33,725 nt of DNA from an archaeon (GTDB taxonomy: Archaea; Asgardarchaeota; Heimdallarchaeia; Heimdallarchaeales; JAJRWK01): the NCBI GenBank assembly GCA_024276795.1, contig JAJRWK010000038.1:1-33725 (forward strand). The letters are read 5' to 3'. Below, piece by piece: positions 1 to 30,630 of the stretch (position 1 is its first letter; every line of letters starts with the position of its first letter). A program made the position numbers and the translations under genes. The notes under the pieces are model-generated. The model was not told where the DNA came from. It saw nothing but the letters and a program-made list of their open reading frames with translations, and did no database searches.

Positions 1-1266
1 AGGGTATTTCCTGCAACACAATATGTGGCAGAGGGACATCTTCTGGAAAATGCGTTACAGGAAATAGAAAAAGAAATGATTGAGCAATGCGCGAAGCTCG
101 AAAGGGAAGGCAAACAAATTGAAACGGCTAGGCTTAGAGAACGCACGCTATATGATATGACATTATTGCGAGAAACAGGGATGTGCCCCGGTATTGAGAA
201 TTATACGCGGTTTTTTGACGGGAGAAAACCTGGTGACCCCCCATATACTCTACTAGATCATTTCCCGAAAGACTACTTCTTAATCATTGATGAGTCACAT
301 GTGACGGTACCTCAAATTAGGGGGATGTACGGCGGGGATTATTCGCGAAAAGTAAACCTAGTAAATCATGGATTTAGGCTTCCCTCCGCGTTTGACAATA
401 GACCTTTGAAATGGGAAGAATTTGAGGAAAAGATGGGAAAAACCTTGTTCATGAGTGCGACTCCGGGTCCATATGAGGTGAAGGTTTCTCAACAAATCGT
501 TGAACAAGTCATTCGACCGACAGGACTAGTTGATCCAGAAATTATTGTTAGACCCACAAATAATCAGATTGATGACCTAATTGCGAGGCTTAGGGCAACC
601 ATTGATAAGGGGCATCGGGCAATAGTTGCCACTCTAACAAAGAAGATGGCAGAGCAGTTGGCGGAGTACTTGCAAGAAATTGGCCTCAAGGTTGAATATT
701 TGCACAGTGAGATTGACACTATTGACCGTGTTGTTCTTCTTCATAGTTTACGTGAAGGAATATTTGACGTGATTGTTGGAATTAATCTTTTGCGAGAGGG
801 TATCGATTTGCCCGAGGTGGCACTTGTAGCGATCCTTGACGCGGATAAGGAAGGATTCTTACGATCGACAAGAAGTCTAATTCAGATAATGGGCCGGGCA
901 GCACGTAACGTAGAGGGTACGGTTGTTTTGTATGCGGATGAAATGACGGGAGCAATGAAGCAGGCAATAAGAGAGAATAATCGTAGAAGGAGAAAACAAC
1001 TAGAGTATAACAAAAAGCACGGAATCACTCCTAAAAGCATTTCCAAAGAGATCATTCAGGTTCTTGACCCAATAAGGGATCAAAATTTAGGGAAATCGAA
1101 GAAGAAAAGAAAAATAGAATTGGCCAAAACATCACGATCAGAATTTGAACAGCTAATAGAGGAACTAACTTTGGAAATGTTAAGCGCAGCAAAGAAAATG
1201 GAGTTTGAGAGAGCAGCAGAATTACGAGACGAGATTAGGGAATTACAAGAGATACTGGGGAATTGA
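1..1266 (+). CDS. uvrB: Excinuclease ABC subunit B, 5'-truncated by window edge
   Basis: Frame is open from base 1 (RVFPATQYVAEGHLLENALQEIEKEM). Contains GIENYTRFFDGRKPGDPPYTLLDHFP, DYFLIIDESHVTVPQIRGMYGGD, helicase motif LLREGIDLPEVALVAILDADKEGFLRS, and a C-terminal UVR domain (EFERAAELRDEIREL). Confidence 0.97.
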   Translation, partial: RVFPATQYVAEGHLLENALQEIEKEMIEQCAKLEREGKQIETARLRERTLYDMTLLRETGMCPGIENYTRFFDGRKPGDPPYTLLDHFPKDYFLIIDESHVTVPQIRGMYGGDYSRKVNLVNHGFRLPSAFDNRPLKWEEFEEKMGKTLFMSATPGPYEVKVSQQIVEQVIRPTGLVDPEIIVRPTNNQIDDLIARLRATIDKGHRAIVATLTKKMAEQLAEYLQEIGLKVEYLHSEIDTIDRVVLLHSLREGIFDVIVGINLLREGIDLPEVALVAILDADKEGFLRSTRSLIQIMGRAARNVEGTVVLYADEMTGAMKQAIRENNRRRRKQLEYNKKHGITPKSISKEIIQVLDPIRDQNLGKSKKKRKIELAKTSRSEFEQLIEELTLEMLSAAKKMEFERAAELRDEIRELQEILGN

Positions 1267-1267
1267 A

Positions 1268-4198
1268 ATGGAACAAGTCGTAAAAGAGACCATTGTAGCA
1301 ATCAAAGAGTCGGATAAGGACACAAAACAAATTCTCGAGGAAGCGAAGTGGATTAGAGTCAGAGGAGCAAGAGAGCATAATCTGAAGAATATTAACGTAG
1401 ATATTCCTCGGAATCAATTTGTTGTAATAACCGGACTATCTGGTAGTGGCAAGTCCTCACTTGCAATCGACACTTTATTTGCAGAAGGTCAGCGAAGATT
1501 CTTGGAGTCACTTAGCTCTTATGCTAGACAGTTTGTTGGTAAGCTAGAAAAACCATTAGTAGATCATATTACCGGACTGTCCCCTGCGATTTGTATTGAT
1601 CAAAAAACAACTTCTGCGAATCCTCGATCAACTGTGGGTACTGTAACTGAAATTTATGATTACTTACGCGTGTTGTTTGCATCGATTGGTGTTCCGTTTT
1701 GTCCCAGGGGGCATGGAGAAGTTTTGCCCACGTCGGTACAGGAGATCATTAATGCTGTTTTGTCGCTTCCAGAAAAAACAAAGATTTCAATTATTGCACC
1801 TGTTGTTCGTCAAAGAAAAGGCCATTACAAAGCGCTTTTTGAGGATATGGTTGCAAAAGGCTATACTGAGGCGATCGTAGATGGAGAACGATTAGATTTA
1901 ACCGAAAAAGAACTTGACTTAGATAAGAAGAAAAAACACTCTATTGAAATTGTTATTGACAAATTGCGAGTAGTCGAGAAAAATAAGGAAAGAATTGCGG
2001 ATGGCATAGAACAAGCTCTGCAACTTGCAAACGGGATCGTTTCGGTCAAAGTCCTACGTGAAGACAAAACTGAAGAGCAGATGCTATTTAGTGAAACGGG
2101 TTCCTGTCCTAAATGCGGTTTTGCTGCCCCAGAATTAGAGCCACGATTATTCTCATTCAATTCCCCACAAGGTGCGTGTCCTTCTTGTACAGGACTCGGC
2201 GTAGTCCTTAGAGCGGATCCAGATCTAATAATCCCCGACAAAACAAAGACGATAAGAGAAGGAGCAATTCTCCCTCTCAGCAAATCCCCTGATTCTTGGT
2301 CCCTTAGGATAATTGCTAGCCTTGGTGAACAATACGGTTTCACACTGGATACACCGATTAATCAAATTTCTAGTGAAGGATTAGATGCATTGCTCTTTGG
2401 AAGCAAGAAAGCAGTCAATGTTGAGATTTCCAGCAAGTCAGTAGATAGTGAATTCAGTTGGTCATACAAGAAGCCAACAGAAGGAATCGTAAATGCCATT
2501 CAGCGAAGACATCGCCAGACAAAATCGGAGAGCATGAGGACGTATTACGAGTCTTTTATGAGTGAATATATCTGCGAAGAATGCAATGGCACTAGGTTAA
2601 ACCCAACGGCTCTTTCAGTTAAAATAGCGGGATATTCTATTGCTCAGATCAACGAGATGTCAGTTAGAGAAGCATATGAATTTTTGAGTAATCTTGATCA
2701 GAGACTTTCCAAAAAGGAGAGGCTCATTTCAGAACAGATCCTTAAGGAATTGCGTGAAAGACTGGGATTCTTGATTTCAGTTGGACTCGATTATCTTACA
2801 CTTAATCGGAAGGCATCTACGCTATCCGGGGGAGAAGCACAGAGAATTCGTTTAGCAACCCAGATTGGGAGCAAGCTTGTTGGGGTTCTTTATGTTCTTG
2901 ATGAACCTTCCATTGGTCTTCACCCGAGAGACACCGCTCGATTAATTGCGACTTTTAAGCAGCTTAGATCCCTTGGAAACAGTGTTTTGGTTGTCGAACA
3001 TGATGAATTAACTATTCGCTCTGCGGATTATGTGTTAGATATGGGTCCGGGAGCTGGATTGAATGGGGGATGGGTTGTAGCCCAAGGTACTGTGGAAGAG
3101 ATCTTGCATCACAGAGAAAGTTTGACGGCGAAATACTTGAGAGGAGAATTAAAGATTAGGGTTCCCGAGAAAAGAAGGCAAGCAAAAGGATGGCTTGTTC
3201 TTACAGGAGTCAGACACAATAATTTGAAAGACGTTACTGTAAAATTCCCCTTGGGAACATTTACTTGCATCACAGGAGTCTCGGGATCGGGTAAAAGTTC
3301 GCTAGTACAAGAAGTATTATGGAGAATCCTTGCTCGAAAATTCTATAATAGTAGAGAACGACCCGGCGAATACAAGACGATTGAAGGGTTAAACCTAATT
3401 GACAAAGTGATTCTCATTGATCAAAGCCCAATTGGTAGGACGCCTCGTTCGAATCCAGCGACTTACACGAAAGTTTTTGACCATATTCGTGATTTCTTCG
3501 CAAAGCTCCCAGAGAGTCGAAAACGCGGGTATAAACCGGGAAGATTTTCGTTCAATGTGAAGGGCGGGCGTTGTGAAGCGTGCAGAGGAAACGGGGATGT
3601 CAAAGTTGAATTACATTTTCTTCCAGACGTGTATGTTCCTTGCGATGTGTGCGGAGGAACCCGATTCAATGAAGAAACATTAGAAGTCAAATATAAGGAA
3701 AAGAACATTAGTGAGGTGCTCGACCTTACTATTGACGAGGCTTTCGAGTTTTTTGAGGGATTGCCCAGGATTCAGCGAATTCTGAAAACCCTGATTGATG
3801 TTGGCTGTGGATACCTAAAACTGGGGCAATCTTCAGTAACACTTTCGGGAGGAGAGGCACAGCGAATAAAACTTAGTAGAGAACTGGCAAAACGAACGAC
3901 TGGTAAAACAGTGATCTTGCTTGATGAACCGACCACAGGGTTACATTTCCATGATGTTCGAAGACTCTTATCAGTAATTCACAGACTAGTCGATAAGGGG
4001 AATACAGTTATGGTAATTGAACACAACTTAGACGTTATCAAGAATGCTGACTACATTATTGATCTAGGTCCGGAAGGCGGAGATTTGGGTGGAGAAATCG
4101 TAGCAACAGGCACTCCTGAAGAGGTCTCAAGGCACTCCAAATCCTATACTGGAAAGTTCTTACGGGAAGTGCTAGACAATGATCCTCAGACCGAGTGA
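1268..4198 (+). CDS. uvrA: Excinuclease ABC subunit A
   Basis: Two ABC ATPase modules (GLSGSGKSSLAIDTLFAEGQRR; GVSGSGKSSLVQEVLW), two LSGGEAQRI signatures, CxxC zinc modules. Start set at ATG 1268 just after the uvrB stop rather than the ORF-track start at 1205, which overlaps uvrB. Confidence 0.97.
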   Translation: MEQVVKETIVAIKESDKDTKQILEEAKWIRVRGAREHNLKNINVDIPRNQFVVITGLSGSGKSSLAIDTLFAEGQRRFLESLSSYARQFVGKLEKPLVDHITGLSPAICIDQKTTSANPRSTVGTVTEIYDYLRVLFASIGVPFCPRGHGEVLPTSVQEIINAVLSLPEKTKISIIAPVVRQRKGHYKALFEDMVAKGYTEAIVDGERLDLTEKELDLDKKKKHSIEIVIDKLRVVEKNKERIADGIEQALQLANGIVSVKVLREDKTEEQMLFSETGSCPKCGFAAPELEPRLFSFNSPQGACPSCTGLGVVLRADPDLIIPDKTKTIREGAILPLSKSPDSWSLRIIASLGEQYGFTLDTPINQISSEGLDALLFGSKKAVNVEISSKSVDSEFSWSYKKPTEGIVNAIQRRHRQTKSESMRTYYESFMSEYICEECNGTRLNPTALSVKIAGYSIAQINEMSVREAYEFLSNLDQRLSKKERLISEQILKELRERLGFLISVGLDYLTLNRKASTLSGGEAQRIRLATQIGSKLVGVLYVLDEPSIGLHPRDTARLIATFKQLRSLGNSVLVVEHDELTIRSADYVLDMGPGAGLNGGWVVAQGTVEEILHHRESLTAKYLRGELKIRVPEKRRQAKGWLVLTGVRHNNLKDVTVKFPLGTFTCITGVSGSGKSSLVQEVLWRILARKFYNSRERPGEYKTIEGLNLIDKVILIDQSPIGRTPRSNPATYTKVFDHIRDFFAKLPESRKRGYKPGRFSFNVKGGRCEACRGNGDVKVELHFLPDVYVPCDVCGGTRFNEETLEVKYKEKNISEVLDLTIDEAFEFFEGLPRIQRILKTLIDVGCGYLKLGQSSVTLSGGEAQRIKLSRELAKRTTGKTVILLDEPTTGLHFHDVRRLLSVIHRLVDKGNTVMVIEHNLDVIKNADYIIDLGPEGGDLGGEIVATGTPEEVSRHSKSYTGKFLREVLDNDPQTE

Positions 4199-5969
4199 GA
4201 TAAATTTAGCTCCAAACAGTCCAGGAGTCTACATCATTTTTGACAAGAGTAACAAAATCATTTACATAGGTAAGTCAAAAGCGCTCCGCAATCGCTTACA
4301 AACACATTTTCATCCTTCCACGCCAGCGACAAAGTCAAGAATCATTCAACAACTTGCACATCAAATTCAGCTGATCGAGACCGAAACGGAAGCGGAGGCA
4401 TTATTGTTGGAATTCAACCTCATCCAAGAACATCGCCCTTCTCTTAATTCTAGGCAGAAAGATAGCAAATCGTTTCCTTATCTTAAGATTACCACAGAAG
4501 AGAAGTATCCAAGAGTTCTCATTGTTCGGGAAGAAAAAAGCAGTAATGCGATTTATCTCGGCCCATACGCTAACGTGAAAAGCCTTCGGAAATCACTCCG
4601 ATTTGCATTAAGACATTTCCCGGTTGCAGACTGTGAAGCGGATATTGATTCTGAGAAAGGAAAAAAGTATGCAAGAATATGTATGAGGAAAAAGTTAGGA
4701 ACCTGTTTTGCACCATGTAGCAAGAATATCGCAAAGGAAATTTATCAATTGAATATAGAAAGGCTTATTCAGTTCTTCTCTGGCGAATTTGAGCCATTAA
4801 TCTCGGGATTAGAACACGAGATGTGGAATCTAGCGGAGAGACAAGAATATGAAGGAGCAGCAAAAATAAGAGACACCATACGAGCTCTCAGGAAAACCAT
4901 GCAACGACAAAACGTCTTTCTCTCGAGTCCAATCTCTGCGACCATAATTGCAGAGACCACACATTCTCCTCAAATAATTATTATCATAGAACTACGAAAT
5001 GGGAGAGTAGTTAATTCTATTGAGTTACCCATCTCGAAGACGAAAAACCGAAAGAGCTGGATTCCTTTTATCCTAGAACGCCTAAGCAATCCTCCAGGAA
5101 ATATGGTCATCACGGAGCCGCATTCACCTTTGTGGAAATATCTCGAGAACGAACTAATTGAGAGGGGAATAATGCTTAGACCACCTTCAAGTAACACTGA
5201 ACAAGAACTGTACAACTATGCATTACAACATGCAATGCTTTCAAGAAAGAGATTAGCCCAGATCAAGTCAGGCCGAAAAACAGCTAGACAGCAACAGAAA
5301 GACTTAGCAGCAATATTTGGAAAGAACATCCAAGTTATTCATTGCTTTGACGTTTCCACACTCCAAGGTCGCCAGAATGTTGCTGCGAGTGTTGTATTTT
5401 ACGAAGGAAACCCTCGCAAGACAGAATATCGAAGATATAAGAGTGTACTTCACAGCCACCAAGATGACTACAAAGTTATCGAGGAAGCTGTTTATCGGAG
5501 GTACGTAAAAGAAGACACTCCGGACTTGCTACTTATTGATGGTGGTTTAGGTCAGGTGAACGCTGCTCTTCGTGGGTTAGAAAAAGCCGGGAAAAACACC
5601 TCTTCATTAATCATCGCTGGTCTCGCGAAGAAAGAAGAAACGCTGATATTCCCAAATGGAAGAACCAAAAAGCTTGATTTAGAGCGGCCAGCAATGTTAT
5701 TGTTAAGAAAAATTCGTGATGAAGCTCATAGATTCGCAGTGACTTATCATCGAAAGTTAAGACAGAAGCAGAACTTGAAGTCGATATTGGATGAGATCGA
5801 GGGAATCGGTCCCAAACGGAAAAAAGCGATTCTGGAGACGTTTCCTTCGATAGAATTTATGCAAAAAGAGAACGTCTCTCCGGAGCTATTATCAAGAAAA
5901 GCAAGGATCCCTTTGGAACTTGCCAGAAGGATCACAAAGCATATCCACGATCAAGATTCCACGGCATAA
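4179..5969 (+). CDS. uvrC: Excinuclease ABC subunit C
   Basis: GIY-YIG domain (PGVYIIFDKSNKIIYIGKSKALRNRL), UVR motif (YEGAAKIRDTIRAL), RNase H-like endonuclease region (LLLIDGGLGQVNAAL), C-terminal HhH (LDEIEGIGPKRKKAIL). Overlaps the uvrA 3' end by 20 nt. Confidence 0.96.
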   Translation: MILRPSEINLAPNSPGVYIIFDKSNKIIYIGKSKALRNRLQTHFHPSTPATKSRIIQQLAHQIQLIETETEAEALLLEFNLIQEHRPSLNSRQKDSKSFPYLKITTEEKYPRVLIVREEKSSNAIYLGPYANVKSLRKSLRFALRHFPVADCEADIDSEKGKKYARICMRKKLGTCFAPCSKNIAKEIYQLNIERLIQFFSGEFEPLISGLEHEMWNLAERQEYEGAAKIRDTIRALRKTMQRQNVFLSSPISATIIAETTHSPQIIIIIELRNGRVVNSIELPISKTKNRKSWIPFILERLSNPPGNMVITEPHSPLWKYLENELIERGIMLRPPSSNTEQELYNYALQHAMLSRKRLAQIKSGRKTARQQQKDLAAIFGKNIQVIHCFDVSTLQGRQNVAASVVFYEGNPRKTEYRRYKSVLHSHQDDYKVIEEAVYRRYVKEDTPDLLLIDGGLGQVNAALRGLEKAGKNTSSLIIAGLAKKEETLIFPNGRTKKLDLERPAMLLLRKIRDEAHRFAVTYHRKLRQKQNLKSILDEIEGIGPKRKKAILETFPSIEFMQKENVSPELLSRKARIPLELARRITKHIHDQDSTA

Positions 5970-7014: not shown

Positions 7015-9792
7015 ATGAGTTCTGGAGACCAATCCCGAATCGATGAATTCTTTGAAGATAAGACTGATTCGGAGAAGAAGAGGCAGAATAAAGTAAGTAG
7101 CCACCCAAAGAAAGCTGATTTGAATACAAGCCAGAACTCAAAGGAAACAAGTTCAGGTAGACAAGTTGGGAAAAAAGCAGAATCTGGAGAGCAGAAAATC
7201 TTACAAAACTTGCCAAATAGCAAGATATTGCCTCCTCCCGATGGAAAAGAGATCTATCTTTTGGATATCCAATACTCTGGAAATAAAAACAAAGCAGTGT
7301 TAACATTTGTAGATCCAATTTCCGGTCAGCTATTTCAATGGATTGATCAAACAGGACACAGGCCTTATCTCTTGACGACTCTAAAGCCTGATGAGATCAT
7401 GCAGGTTGATCGTGTCGCGAGTTCTAAGAATTTTGTAGGGATTGAGAGCGTTACAAGAACCAACTTGCTATTGTTTCAAGAAAGAAAGTATTCTCGAATA
7501 ATTGGCTCGAATCCATTGGCAATTGGTGGAAGGCAAGATTCGTTTAGACAACTTATCGGCCCTGCGTATGAGGCAGATATTCGTTATCATTTGAACTATA
7601 TTTGTGACAGAGCAATTACTCCGGCAAGCTTCTTTGAGTTTAGAGATAATAAGCCCCATGAGCGGACAATGCAAATCGATGAAGAGATCCAAAATGCCTT
7701 GGAAAAGGCATTTGAGAACGAGGAAAAAGAAGAAAAAGATCTCCTACAAGAGTACATGCCGCTTTTGTTCTCTCCAATGCCTGATGTATTACGAGCGTCC
7801 TTTGATATTGAGGTTGCTTCAGATGAAGGAAGAATGCCAAATGTGGTTGAAGCCGAGCAAGCAATCATTAGTATCGCATTGACTGATACCTTGGGAAATC
7901 GAGTGGTTTGGGTTCTTTTGAGAAAAAAAAAGAGTGGCTTATTGCTAAAGCAAGATGTAATAATCCGAGTATTTCACAATGAGAAAGAACTAATTCGTGA
8001 TTTCTTTTCGATTATTTCCAGATATCCAATTGTTGTCACATTTAATGGAGACAATTTTGATATCCCTTATTTGATACGAAGAGCTATGAGATTGGAATTC
8101 AGCGAGCAAGAAATCCCATTTGAGATAAAGAATAAAGAGGGTTATTGCAAGAGCGGAGCAGTACACTTGGATCTTTATCAATTCTTCAAGCAAGCGGCGA
8201 TCAAGGTCTATGCGTTTGGCAACGCCTATGACAGCGCTAGTTTGGATGAGTTGTCCAGTGCATTGCTTGGCAAACAGAAAATAGAGTTTGAAGGGACTAT
8301 TGAGAACCTAACCCTAGATAAATTATTAGAGTATAATCTTAGAGACGCAGAACTCACGCTAGAGCTTACGAGGTTCAACAATAATCTCGTAATGGATCTG
8401 ATCTGGACCTTAATGAGGATAACCAAAATGCCGATGCACGACTTCATTCGCAATACTGTAAGTACATGGATCAGAAATTGGTTTATTTTTGAGCACCGAA
8501 AAAAGAAGCTATTGATTCCAAATAGGAGTGATATTTTATCACTCAAAGGGTCAGCTTCAACGACTGCAATGATTAAGGGGAAAAAATACCAAGGGGCAAT
8601 AGTCATTACTCCCAAAGCAGGGATTTGGTGGAATGTCCACGTCATGGACTTCGCATCTCTTTATCCTTCTCTCATCAAAGTTCGAAATCTATCCTACGAG
8701 ACCATTAATTGTCCTCATCAAGATTGTCAGGAAAATGTTGTTCCCGGTACAACGCACTGGGTTTGTACCAAAAAGCAGGGATTCATGTCAGCATTGGTAG
8801 GATTCATTAGAGACGTTAGGGTAAATTGGTTCAAGCCAAAAACCAAAGATAGTAGTCTGCCGAAACGCGTTCGAAACCAGTACAATGTTATTCAAGCTTC
8901 GCTGAAGGTTCTAATAAACGCAGCCTATGGTGTATTTGGAGCGGAGTACTTTTCTTTCTACTGCCCACCTGTTGCAGAGTCAACTGCAGCACTAGCAAGA
9001 TTTGCAATTTCAAAAACCAAAGAATATTGTGAAAATGTGTTAGGGCTTGAGGTTATTTATGGAGACACAGATTCTGTTTTTCTACTTAATCCAAGTGATG
9101 AAGCAGTGGAGGAATTGAAAAAATGGAGCAGAAAAGAACTCCAAGTCGACTTAGGAACAGATTATGTTTTTCGATACGTTGTACTTTCAGAGAGAAAAAA
9201 GAATTATTTCGGAGTCACAAATGATGGAAAAATTATTGTCAAGGGGTTGCTAGGAAAAAAGAGAAATACCCCTCCAATGGTTAGAAAAGCATTCCAAAGA
9301 GTACTAAACACTCTAAGAAACATCCACAGCGAAAAAGATTTTGAGACTGCCCGCGCAAAAATCATTTCAGAAATTAGAATACTTATCAAGAAAATAAAGT
9401 CATTCGATTTTGATATTGAAGAAATTGCGATTAGTCAGACGGTATCGCAATCGTTGAAAAATTATAAGGCTTGGACCCCCGTCTTGCAAGCAATCGCTCA
9501 ATTATTCAGTGATGAGGACACGACTCGACAATTGGGAGAAGGATCGACAATATTCTTCGTTCCAGTTAGGCCTTTCCGATTTAACGTTAATACAGAAGCA
9601 ATACCCAAACAATATCAGGGCACCCAAACCTGTAGCGTGAAACCCATTGAACGTGTCAAAAAACGAGATGAGATTGACACAGAAAAAATAATTGAACACG
9701 TCAGAAGCACGTTTTCACAAATCTTAGAAACACTTGAGATCTCTTGGGATGAGATACAGGGTGTGCAATCTATTGATCAATTTTTTGATTGA
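7015..9792 (+). CDS. polB: DNA polymerase family B (replicative type, with 3'-5' exonuclease motifs)
   Basis: Exo I SFDIEV, Exo II TFNGDNFDIPYL, Exo III YNLRDAELT; Pol motif A MDFASLYPSLIKVRNLS, motif B KVLINAAYGVFGAEY, motif C VIYGDTDSVF. Confidence 0.97.
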   Translation: MSSGDQSRIDEFFEDKTDSEKKRQNKVSSHPKKADLNTSQNSKETSSGRQVGKKAESGEQKILQNLPNSKILPPPDGKEIYLLDIQYSGNKNKAVLTFVDPISGQLFQWIDQTGHRPYLLTTLKPDEIMQVDRVASSKNFVGIESVTRTNLLLFQERKYSRIIGSNPLAIGGRQDSFRQLIGPAYEADIRYHLNYICDRAITPASFFEFRDNKPHERTMQIDEEIQNALEKAFENEEKEEKDLLQEYMPLLFSPMPDVLRASFDIEVASDEGRMPNVVEAEQAIISIALTDTLGNRVVWVLLRKKKSGLLLKQDVIIRVFHNEKELIRDFFSIISRYPIVVTFNGDNFDIPYLIRRAMRLEFSEQEIPFEIKNKEGYCKSGAVHLDLYQFFKQAAIKVYAFGNAYDSASLDELSSALLGKQKIEFEGTIENLTLDKLLEYNLRDAELTLELTRFNNNLVMDLIWTLMRITKMPMHDFIRNTVSTWIRNWFIFEHRKKKLLIPNRSDILSLKGSASTTAMIKGKKYQGAIVITPKAGIWWNVHVMDFASLYPSLIKVRNLSYETINCPHQDCQENVVPGTTHWVCTKKQGFMSALVGFIRDVRVNWFKPKTKDSSLPKRVRNQYNVIQASLKVLINAAYGVFGAEYFSFYCPPVAESTAALARFAISKTKEYCENVLGLEVIYGDTDSVFLLNPSDEAVEELKKWSRKELQVDLGTDYVFRYVVLSERKKNYFGVTNDGKIIVKGLLGKKRNTPPMVRKAFQRVLNTLRNIHSEKDFETARAKIISEIRILIKKIKSFDFDIEEIAISQTVSQSLKNYKAWTPVLQAIAQLFSDEDTTRQLGEGSTIFFVPVRPFRFNVNTEAIPKQYQGTQTCSVKPIERVKKRDEIDTEKIIEHVRSTFSQILETLEISWDEIQGVQSIDQFFD

Positions 9793-10931: not shown

Positions 10932-11822
10932 TCACAATTGTTTGAGCATATTGTTTAGATGATCCGCAAGAATTTTTTCTTCAATATCCTTGCCTGAACC
11001 AACATATGCTATACCTTCCAACAGACTCACTTCCAACACAGGAAAATGAAGACCAAGCTGTTGAGCAATGCTTTCAATATCCTGCTTACGCAAAAATTCG
11101 TTACACTCCTTCGTAAGGTACAAATCAAGTTTGTTTATTAGAATAATCCCATTTGATTTCTCGGATCTGCTCAGAGTAGAGATATGTCGTAATGCTTCTA
11201 TCTGCTCTTCGTCTCTGACTCGAGATCCATCTATTACATGAATGATAAACGTGGAATTTGAAACCGCTTCTTGCCAAAGATTCCAGAAGTCCCTCTGCCC
11301 ACCTAGATCAAGCAAAGTAATAGTTGAGCGGCCAATTTTTATTTCTCTCATGCTCTTTCCAAGAGTAGGAAGAGAAGTTTCATCTTGGAGTCTAAGCGGT
11401 TTTCCAGTAGCAAGATATCGAGCTAGAGTGGTCTTTCCAGCTTGTGAGGAACCAGTAATCGAAATGACTAATTGTTTCCCGAAAAGAATGTTAAACAGGG
11501 ATTTCCGAATGCGGGAAAAAAATGACCTTCTTGAACGCGACGAATTAGAAGGTTTCCCAGGATCCGACATCTCAAACTCAACAATCGAGTCGCCCAGATA
11601 GCTTCCATCGATAAGAAAGTATACAATGCGATCGTGATCTCTGTGGTTAATTATGACACTCCCAATTTCCAAATCTTTGTCTTCAACAAGGGCAGCGAGC
11701 TCTTCTTTACTGATAAATGCGCTGTCAAAGGATCGACATTTGGAACACTCCAATGTGCGGATCAATAAACCTTCCGATTCTGTGGAAAATGTGGAACCAG
11801 GGGTAATATTTCTTCGTTGCAT
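10932..11822 (-). CDS. Arf/Ras-superfamily small GTPase with about 110-aa N-terminal extension
   Basis: G1 GSSQAGKTT, G3 LLDLGGQRDFW, G4 NKLD. Start set at ATG 11822; the ORF-track start 11828 is TTG. Confidence 0.87.
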   Translation of the reverse strand: MQRRNITPGSTFSTESEGLLIRTLECSKCRSFDSAFISKEELAALVEDKDLEIGSVIINHRDHDRIVYFLIDGSYLGDSIVEFEMSDPGKPSNSSRSRRSFFSRIRKSLFNILFGKQLVISITGSSQAGKTTLARYLATGKPLRLQDETSLPTLGKSMREIKIGRSTITLLDLGGQRDFWNLWQEAVSNSTFIIHVIDGSRVRDEEQIEALRHISTLSRSEKSNGIILINKLDLYLTKECNEFLRKQDIESIAQQLGLHFPVLEVSLLEGIAYVGSGKDIEEKILADHLNNMLKQL

Positions 11823-11910
11823 TAACAATTAGTGATGATTACAACATATAAAACACGTAAAGTAGATAGATCCGTATCAAAGCGATTTGTGGCTCCAAAA
11901 TCGCCCGTGG

Positions 11911-29274: not shown

Positions 29275-30630
29275 CTACTCTTCAGGATCAACAACACCAT
29301 CTTGAGTTATTGCAAAAATAGTCTCATTTTCAGGGAGAACGGGGGAGTCAAAAATACGAGCAATTCGTTTTTCACCTTTTGACTTTCGCAAATAAACTCT
29401 TGTTCTTGCCCAGTGACCGATAATATTACCACCCACAGCTTGAGTTGGATCTCCAAAAAATTGAGCGGGGTTTGCTTGTACTTGGTTCGTTACCACGATT
29501 GCGACCCCAAAGGTATCGGCTAAACGATGCAAGATACTTAAGTGATAGTTCAGTATTTGTTGTCTTTCAGCCAATGTCCCCCGGCCAGCAAATTCAGCTC
29601 GAAAATGCGCGGAAATGGAGTCAACTACAACCACGCCAAATTCGTTAGGATATTCATTAAAAACTTCAAAGAGTTTAGCCGCAATTGCTTGTTGGTGATC
29701 GCTTGTATATGCACGAGCATACAGAATATCCTTCAAAACATCTTCATAGCTTTTTTCCCAACCATATTCTCTTTGAAAGCGTTCAACCATTTGTTTTATT
29801 CTTGTGGGGCTAAACGTTCCCTCAGTATCAACAAAAACGGCTTTTGTCCCGATTCCCCCAAGCTCTTCAGGTAGTTGGACTGTTACGCAGAGTTGATGAC
29901 AAATTTGAGATTTTCCAGAACGGAATGCTCCAAAGAATTCATATGTTTCTGATAAGCGTATACCTCCCTTATTATCATCTGGTAAGGCAGTGAGTTGATC
30001 CAAACTCTTCGCACCAAAGGTGAACGTTGGTGCAACTTCTTGTCTTCGCAATACGGTTAAGCCGTCAATGAATATTTCTCCTCTAATGTATTGCCGAATA
30101 TAATTCTGATATTTTTGAGCCAATGTTGCAGAGAGTCCGTATTTTTCCTCCAATTCCCTGATAGGAGTTGTTTCTAGGATCTTAAGACTTAGGCCTTTTT
30201 CTCGTAGAGCCTTCGCAGTCGTTGGACCAATCCCTTCGATATCCTCAAGACTGAGTTCTTCCTCAAAGTCATGATACAATTCGGGGAATAACTCTTTTAC
30301 ACTTGCTCGAATTCTTTTTGCAAGAGGGCGTTTGATACCTAAGCTTTCAAGATATGAGAGCTTTGCTTTCATCAACTGGTGAGGGTCGTTAATATCCCCT
30401 GCTCTTAGTTTTTGAGCAGTTGTAGGTCCCACACCAGGGATCTCCTCTAGGGAGATTTGGGGAATGTCAGAGCCTTTCAAATCTGTTGAGGAAGAAACAA
30501 GGTCTTCGTTTTTAGAAGGGGATTGTTCTTTTTCACTAACAGAAACATCGGTAGTAGAGGTTTTTACTCGTTTTCGCTTGCTTCGGGATTTTTCATCAGT
30601 CTTTTCTGTCTTTTCACTAGGCACAATCAT
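29275..30630 (-). CDS. radA: DNA repair and recombination protein RadA
   Basis: Walker A GAFRSGKSQICHQLCVTVQLP; Walker B EFGVVVVDSISAHFRAEFAGRGTLAERQQ; VTNQVQANPAQFFGDPTQAVGGNIIGHWARTRVYLRKS; N-terminal HhH motifs. Confidence 0.96.
   Translation of the reverse strand: MIVPSEKTEKTDEKSRSKRKRVKTSTTDVSVSEKEQSPSKNEDLVSSSTDLKGSDIPQISLEEIPGVGPTTAQKLRAGDINDPHQLMKAKLSYLESLGIKRPLAKRIRASVKELFPELYHDFEEELSLEDIEGIGPTTAKALREKGLSLKILETTPIRELEEKYGLSATLAQKYQNYIRQYIRGEIFIDGLTVLRRQEVAPTFTFGAKSLDQLTALPDDNKGGIRLSETYEFFGAFRSGKSQICHQLCVTVQLPEELGGIGTKAVFVDTEGTFSPTRIKQMVERFQREYGWEKSYEDVLKDILYARAYTSDHQQAIAAKLFEVFNEYPNEFGVVVVDSISAHFRAEFAGRGTLAERQQILNYHLSILHRLADTFGVAIVVTNQVQANPAQFFGDPTQAVGGNIIGHWARTRVYLRKSKGEKRIARIFDSPVLPENETIFAITQDGVVDPEE

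Follow-up and report, generated by a model that had tools for sequence, protein, structure and literature searches.

The window analyzed here is a stretch of 33,725 nucleotides from an Asgard archaeon (contig JAJRWK010000038.1), and its open reading frame at positions 7015–9792 is, judged from its sequence, the full-length PolB1-type replicative DNA polymerase of a Heimdallarchaeia-type Asgard archaeon. The polymerase has a PCNA-interacting protein (PIP) motif, of the kind by which proteins hold the sliding clamp PCNA, near its N-terminus and a PIP-like motif lacking the first glutamine (Gln) at its C-terminus. Probably, the polymerase is anchored to PCNA mainly by its N-terminal motif, which sits on a flexible leash, and the Gln-less motif at the C-terminus adds a further clamp contact that is weaker or conditional; what we infer is that both motifs bind PCNA, how strong each is relative to the other, and their two-site or two-step action. 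The features concerned are as follows.

7015..9792, + strand: PolB1-type family B DNA polymerase, 925 amino acids plus stop (NCBIfam NF004417, PDB match, catalytic residues, structure model)
7030..7053, + strand: N-terminal PIP motif QSRIDEFF, residues 6–13 (exact Qxx[ILM]xxFF; conserved columns)
7054..7239, + strand: variable charged tether from the N-terminal motif to the polymerase fold, residues 14–75 (column entropy; predicted local distance difference test score, pLDDT)
9763..9786, + strand: C-terminal PIP-like motif VQSIDQFF, residues 917–924 (conserved columns; aligns with SIDSFF of Sulfolobus PolB1)

The polymerase and its two termini

The open reading frame scores 919.9 bits against NF004417 (archaeal PolB1, DNA-directed DNA polymerase I), above the cut-off of 780, and contains Pfam matches to DNA_pol_B and to exonuclease domains. 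Its best PDB match is Sulfolobus PolB1 (1s5j) with an E value of 3e-181, the next best being at ∼1e-45, and in an alignment of 71 Asgard PolB1 sequences residues D264, E266 and D545 and the Y682-G-D-T-D686 region are invariant or nearly so, with the exonuclease and polymerase motifs intact. The AlphaFold model has a confident core (mean pLDDT 87.6). The genome is a metagenome-assembled one that its relatives identify as Asgard: a search of genome contigs returned a single relative (Candidatus Heimdallarchaeota), with 91% identity across the C-terminal half. The ATG at position 7015 is the earliest start codon in frame, with an in-frame stop five codons upstream, and the four codons between them (LITI) offer no alternative ATG, GTG or TTG; the next in-frame start downstream is a TTG at residue 36.

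The original prediction described QSRIDEFF as an exact fit to Qxx[ILM]xxFF, followed by about 60 charged, low-complexity residues, and both statements hold. The motif lies in a predicted disordered, terminal segment (residues 1–55, pLDDT <50), and the tether at residues 14–75 is unconserved, with a column entropy of about 3–3.5 bits across the 71 sequences; short helical turns are modeled at residues 9–11 and 920–924 and a short helix at residues 53–65. When this tail is shuffled, a QxxhxxFF match arises with a chance of ∼3e-4. QSRIDEFF thus has the sequence, the flexible terminal exposure and the key-position conservation of a canonical PIP box, and PCNA binding is predicted for it. At the other end, VQSIDQFF is followed by D925 and the stop codon; as had been noted, its first position lacks Gln, being occupied by Val with Gln at position 2, so that the motif is non-canonical and can be called PIP-like only.

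Conservation across Asgard PolB1

Both protein ends were read at PolB1 loci from ∼150 Asgard genomes, which are grouped here by unnamed labels of the search tool (f2–f28). The full N-terminal motif, Qxxhxx[FWY]h, occurs in 75/141 Asgard PolB1 tails, compared with 1.5 ± 1.2 in shuffled tails; in 2 of those 75 (L020 and L024) the match lies upstream of the ATG, and these, which had looked like proteins with Gln at both ends, were removed from the later Gln count. All 67 tail-bearing rows of the alignment have L/I in alignment column 9 and F/Y/W in column 12, and the Gln is present in 28/56 aligned rows. In the C-terminal motif, all 71 aligned sequences carry L/I/M at position 4 and F/W at position 7, and 53 of them have F at position 8. 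Both motifs are therefore conserved among orthologs, the alignment that had been proposed as a check, and the close, same-genus relative (G002/L004), in which the N-terminal motif might have been absent, carries QTTLEDFL at the N-terminus and TQSIDQWF at the C-terminus. The N-terminal motif reads QSSLEDFF or QASLDDFF in f28, QKSLFSFV or QTSLFSFV in f19 (which we infer to be Loki-type), QPSLDSFF in f6, QQTLDDFW in f2, and SLEDFF without Gln in f3, and takes degenerate forms in f4. On this comparison of sequences, the N-terminal motif is real and common to nearly all Asgard PolB1 examined, and the C-terminal motif is near-universal.

Short motifs do arise by chance, and the tail is of low complexity, so a fortuitous match or a wrongly assigned start had to be considered. 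Such an origin is extremely improbable given 75 observed against 1.5 expected, the conserved position and the lack of an upstream start: chance is ruled out by the shuffles together with conservation at the same place in relatives, and a wrong start codon, which the original prediction had raised as a concern, is ruled out because the motif recurs there and no alternative to ATG 7015 lies upstream.

Two further features of these loci were seen. Several relatives have a second, diverged PolB1-like gene (L162–L165, f3) with no N-terminal motif and a variable C-terminal motif. In-frame insertions of ∼350–450 amino acids interrupt several Asgard PolB1 genes (L153, L154, L155 (f4), L145, L144, L148); L145 has an Intein_splicing domain and LAGLIDADG, and L153 has a LAGLIDADG match within an insertion near the DFASLYPS motif.

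Position of the canonical glutamine

Among 143 PolB1 proteins, 75 have the position-1 Gln in the N-terminal motif only, 34 in the C-terminal motif only, 34 in neither and 0 in both, a pattern spotted in the same data that were counted, with an N-terminal pattern slightly relaxed (last position free) after the sequences had been viewed. Within f4, one member (L152) has QMNLEKFL at the N-terminus and IKSLDTFF at the C-terminus, and its sisters have C-terminal QKSLDxWF and no N-terminal Gln. The tree requires few Gln changes (11 for the N-terminal and 4 for the C-terminal motif), and an independent-pairs (sign) test of exclusivity was not significant, there being too few informative pairs. Exclusivity is further weakened by three f19 sequences (L093, L101 and L118) that combine an N-terminal Gln motif with a C-terminal end QxxLF. 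In place of the usual C-terminal xxMDAFF, these three have a longer tail ending in QKTLF, QKKLF or QSTLF, an ending similar to clamp motifs of the QLxLF type. Exclusivity as a proven rule was dropped for both reasons, and the absence of a canonical Gln from both full motifs of one protein is a new lead that is suggestive only and not statistically established. A speculative and rather doubtful extension of this lead is that two PIPs are the ancestral state of Asgard PolB1 and that the strong, Gln-bearing anchor moved between ends during evolution, with selection against two strong anchors, which might hinder release and handover to FEN1 and other clamp users.

Comparison with known polymerases

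The PIP reported for Sulfolobus PolB1, an enzyme that binds PCNA2, is QLTLF (PMC3504372), and the comparison rests on this report and on PDB 1s5j. QLTLF is not found in the stretch of Sulfolobus PolB1 aligned from 1s5j (residues 12–839) and must therefore lie at a terminus, which by deduction is placed as the N-terminus. The Sulfolobus (Saccharolobus) solfataricus enzyme (Dpo1) belongs to the same PolB1 group and has a C-terminal SIDSFF, also without position-1 Gln, but it differs in having QLTLF rather than a full QxxhxxFF motif and in working with a PCNA heterotrimer of three gene products, whereas one PCNA gene was found in the genome of the window. We take QLTLF to stand at residues 4–8 of the Sulfolobus protein, an assumption that serves as a lead and not as a test.

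In PolD of P. abyssi, an unrelated family, two PIPs (iPIP and cPIP) both lie in the C-terminal part of a single subunit, DP2; as in the polymerase of the window, a replicative enzyme has two PIPs, one of them Gln-less and C-terminal (SLEEFF). The Gln-less C-terminal peptide KKRVISLEEFFS of DP2 was crystallized on PCNA, binds it less tightly on its own and can bind primase as well, and the free cPIP peptide (ISLEEFF) binds primase better (4 µM) than PCNA (49 µM); the two PIPs share one pocket, and a two-step action or recruitment has been proposed (PMC7101311). The family B polymerase of P. furiosus likewise has a PIP and an extra thumb–PCNA contact (PMC3504372). It differs in belonging to the PolB3 subgroup. 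Presumably, its sole PIP is C-terminal, and it lacks an N-terminal tail. The original prediction had stated that archaeal PolBs usually carry a C-terminal PIP, which we take to be right for PolB3-type enzymes but which does not extend to the PolB1 group, where the reported PIP is Sulfolobus QLTLF. In human DNA ligase 1, a PIP in the disordered N-terminus is accompanied by a second PIP (PMC9767926). This enzyme, Pol eta and Pol delta resemble the polymerase of the window because each has several PIPs; the likeness does not extend to a common origin of the motifs. A C-terminal PCNA-motif profile has been built from PolB1 polymerases (PMC11791011), and no paper describing both motifs together in PolB1 was found in a literature search that covered few subscription papers.

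Proposed mechanism and alternative explanations

One PCNA gene was detected in the genome of the window (87% complete), and PCNA is also single in nearly all relatives searched, so that several PCNA genes were rejected as the cause of two PIPs. The encoded protein is an ordinary PCNA homolog by sequence, and FEN1 of the same genome has QASLDDFF at its end, a motif of the type seen at the PolB1 N-terminus; a role of the N-terminal motif as clamp tether is suggested on these grounds. QSRIDEFF on its disordered leash of ∼60 residues would hold PolB1 to the clamp, and (V)QSIDQFF, which extends straight from the folded polymerase, would touch the clamp a second time near the body of the enzyme. The single detected PCNA gene points to a clamp that is presumably homotrimeric, its pockets being equivalent. 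Held by the leash, the polymerase may stay on one PCNA subunit, with the C-terminal motif docking on the same or a neighboring subunit during synthesis; alternatively, the C-terminal motif may let go so that FEN1 can take the clamp site. Contact with two PCNA subunits or a handover within the replisome, as suggested in the original prediction, is possible.

Several observations weigh against two working clamp contacts. The N-terminal tail is missing in almost all members of f5 and f7, families of the same class, and the f4 motif mostly lacks Gln, so two strong PIPs are not required everywhere. Nine f5 and f7 members (L147, L149–L151, L156–L159 and L161) have no N-terminal tail motif and a canonical C-terminal QVNLMEFF or QINLMEFF, and one f5 member (L160) has the tail, with SPKLDEFV. 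One possible reading of the Gln pattern is that each protein has a single functional motif, and the literature search turned up no binding measurements on an Asgard PolB1. It is accordingly possible, if less probable than the anchor with a second contact, that each enzyme has one working PIP marked by the canonical Gln (N-terminal here, C-terminal in f4 and f5), the other motif being a degenerate remnant. The count of 0/143 proteins with Gln in both full motifs and the opposite ends used by L152 and its f4 sisters are in line with this idea, but the hydrophobic and aromatic positions are near-invariant, unlike those of a decaying remnant, and Gln-less PIPs are able to bind PCNA (PMC7101311). 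The Gln pattern itself also loses force from the few independent changes on the tree with their non-significant sign test, and from the three f19 proteins with QxxLF ends.

Two other readings assign one of the ends a different partner. The C-terminal motif might bind PCNA or primase in turn, as PolD cPIP does, so that the ends would divide clamp anchoring and primer handover; (x)SIDQFF is similar in type to ISLEEFF, but the likeness exists only at the level of the motif, no PolB1–primase binding was found in the literature examined, and PolD (DP2), which is present in the same genome, could fill the role, which makes this division of labor unlikely. Less likely still is that the N-terminal PIP-like motif binds another partner, such as an accessory subunit, the clamp loader or a helicase. 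The N-terminal extension of Aeropyrum PolB1, which has no known function and no effect on catalysis or heat stability (PMC5911459), would be compatible with such a partner, but the motif agrees with the PIP consensus as well as with the PIP of FEN1 from its own genome, and the QLTLF of Sulfolobus PolB1 is reported as a PIP (PMC3504372).

Other genes of the genome and the window

In addition to PCNA, the replication genes found in the genome include two further family B polymerase stretches, PolD DP2 and FEN1. A second full-length PolB (L002, 817–3426, − strand) ends in KVRLDDFL, which is PIP-like and Gln-less, and its best NCBIfam matches are DNA polymerase II models, below cut-off. Within the window, uvrB (cut by the window edge), uvrA and uvrC stand in a row at 25–5969 (+ strand), a bacterial-type excision repair cluster adjoining the archaeal polB. 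An Arf-family small GTPase domain is encoded near polB (10932–11828, − strand), preceded by ∼110 residues without a family match. A RadA/Rad51 protein of 451 amino acids (29275–30630, − strand) has an extension of ∼120 residues before the usual RadA match, with an extra helix-hairpin-helix domain at 61–112.

Meaning for Asgard replication

A PolB1 with two clamp motifs is a conserved and largely foreseeable arrangement that is not new in kind, given QLTLF and SIDSFF in Sulfolobus and the two PIPs of PolD, Pol eta and Pol delta. Among archaea, the Asgard group is the one most closely related to eukaryotes, and no paper testing how their polymerases hold the clamp was found. A single-chain polymerase with two motifs across the phylum would be a simple setting in which to study why replicative polymerases have more than one PIP. 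The strong motif appears to have switched termini, which predicts that the mutant losing processivity would differ from lineage to lineage.
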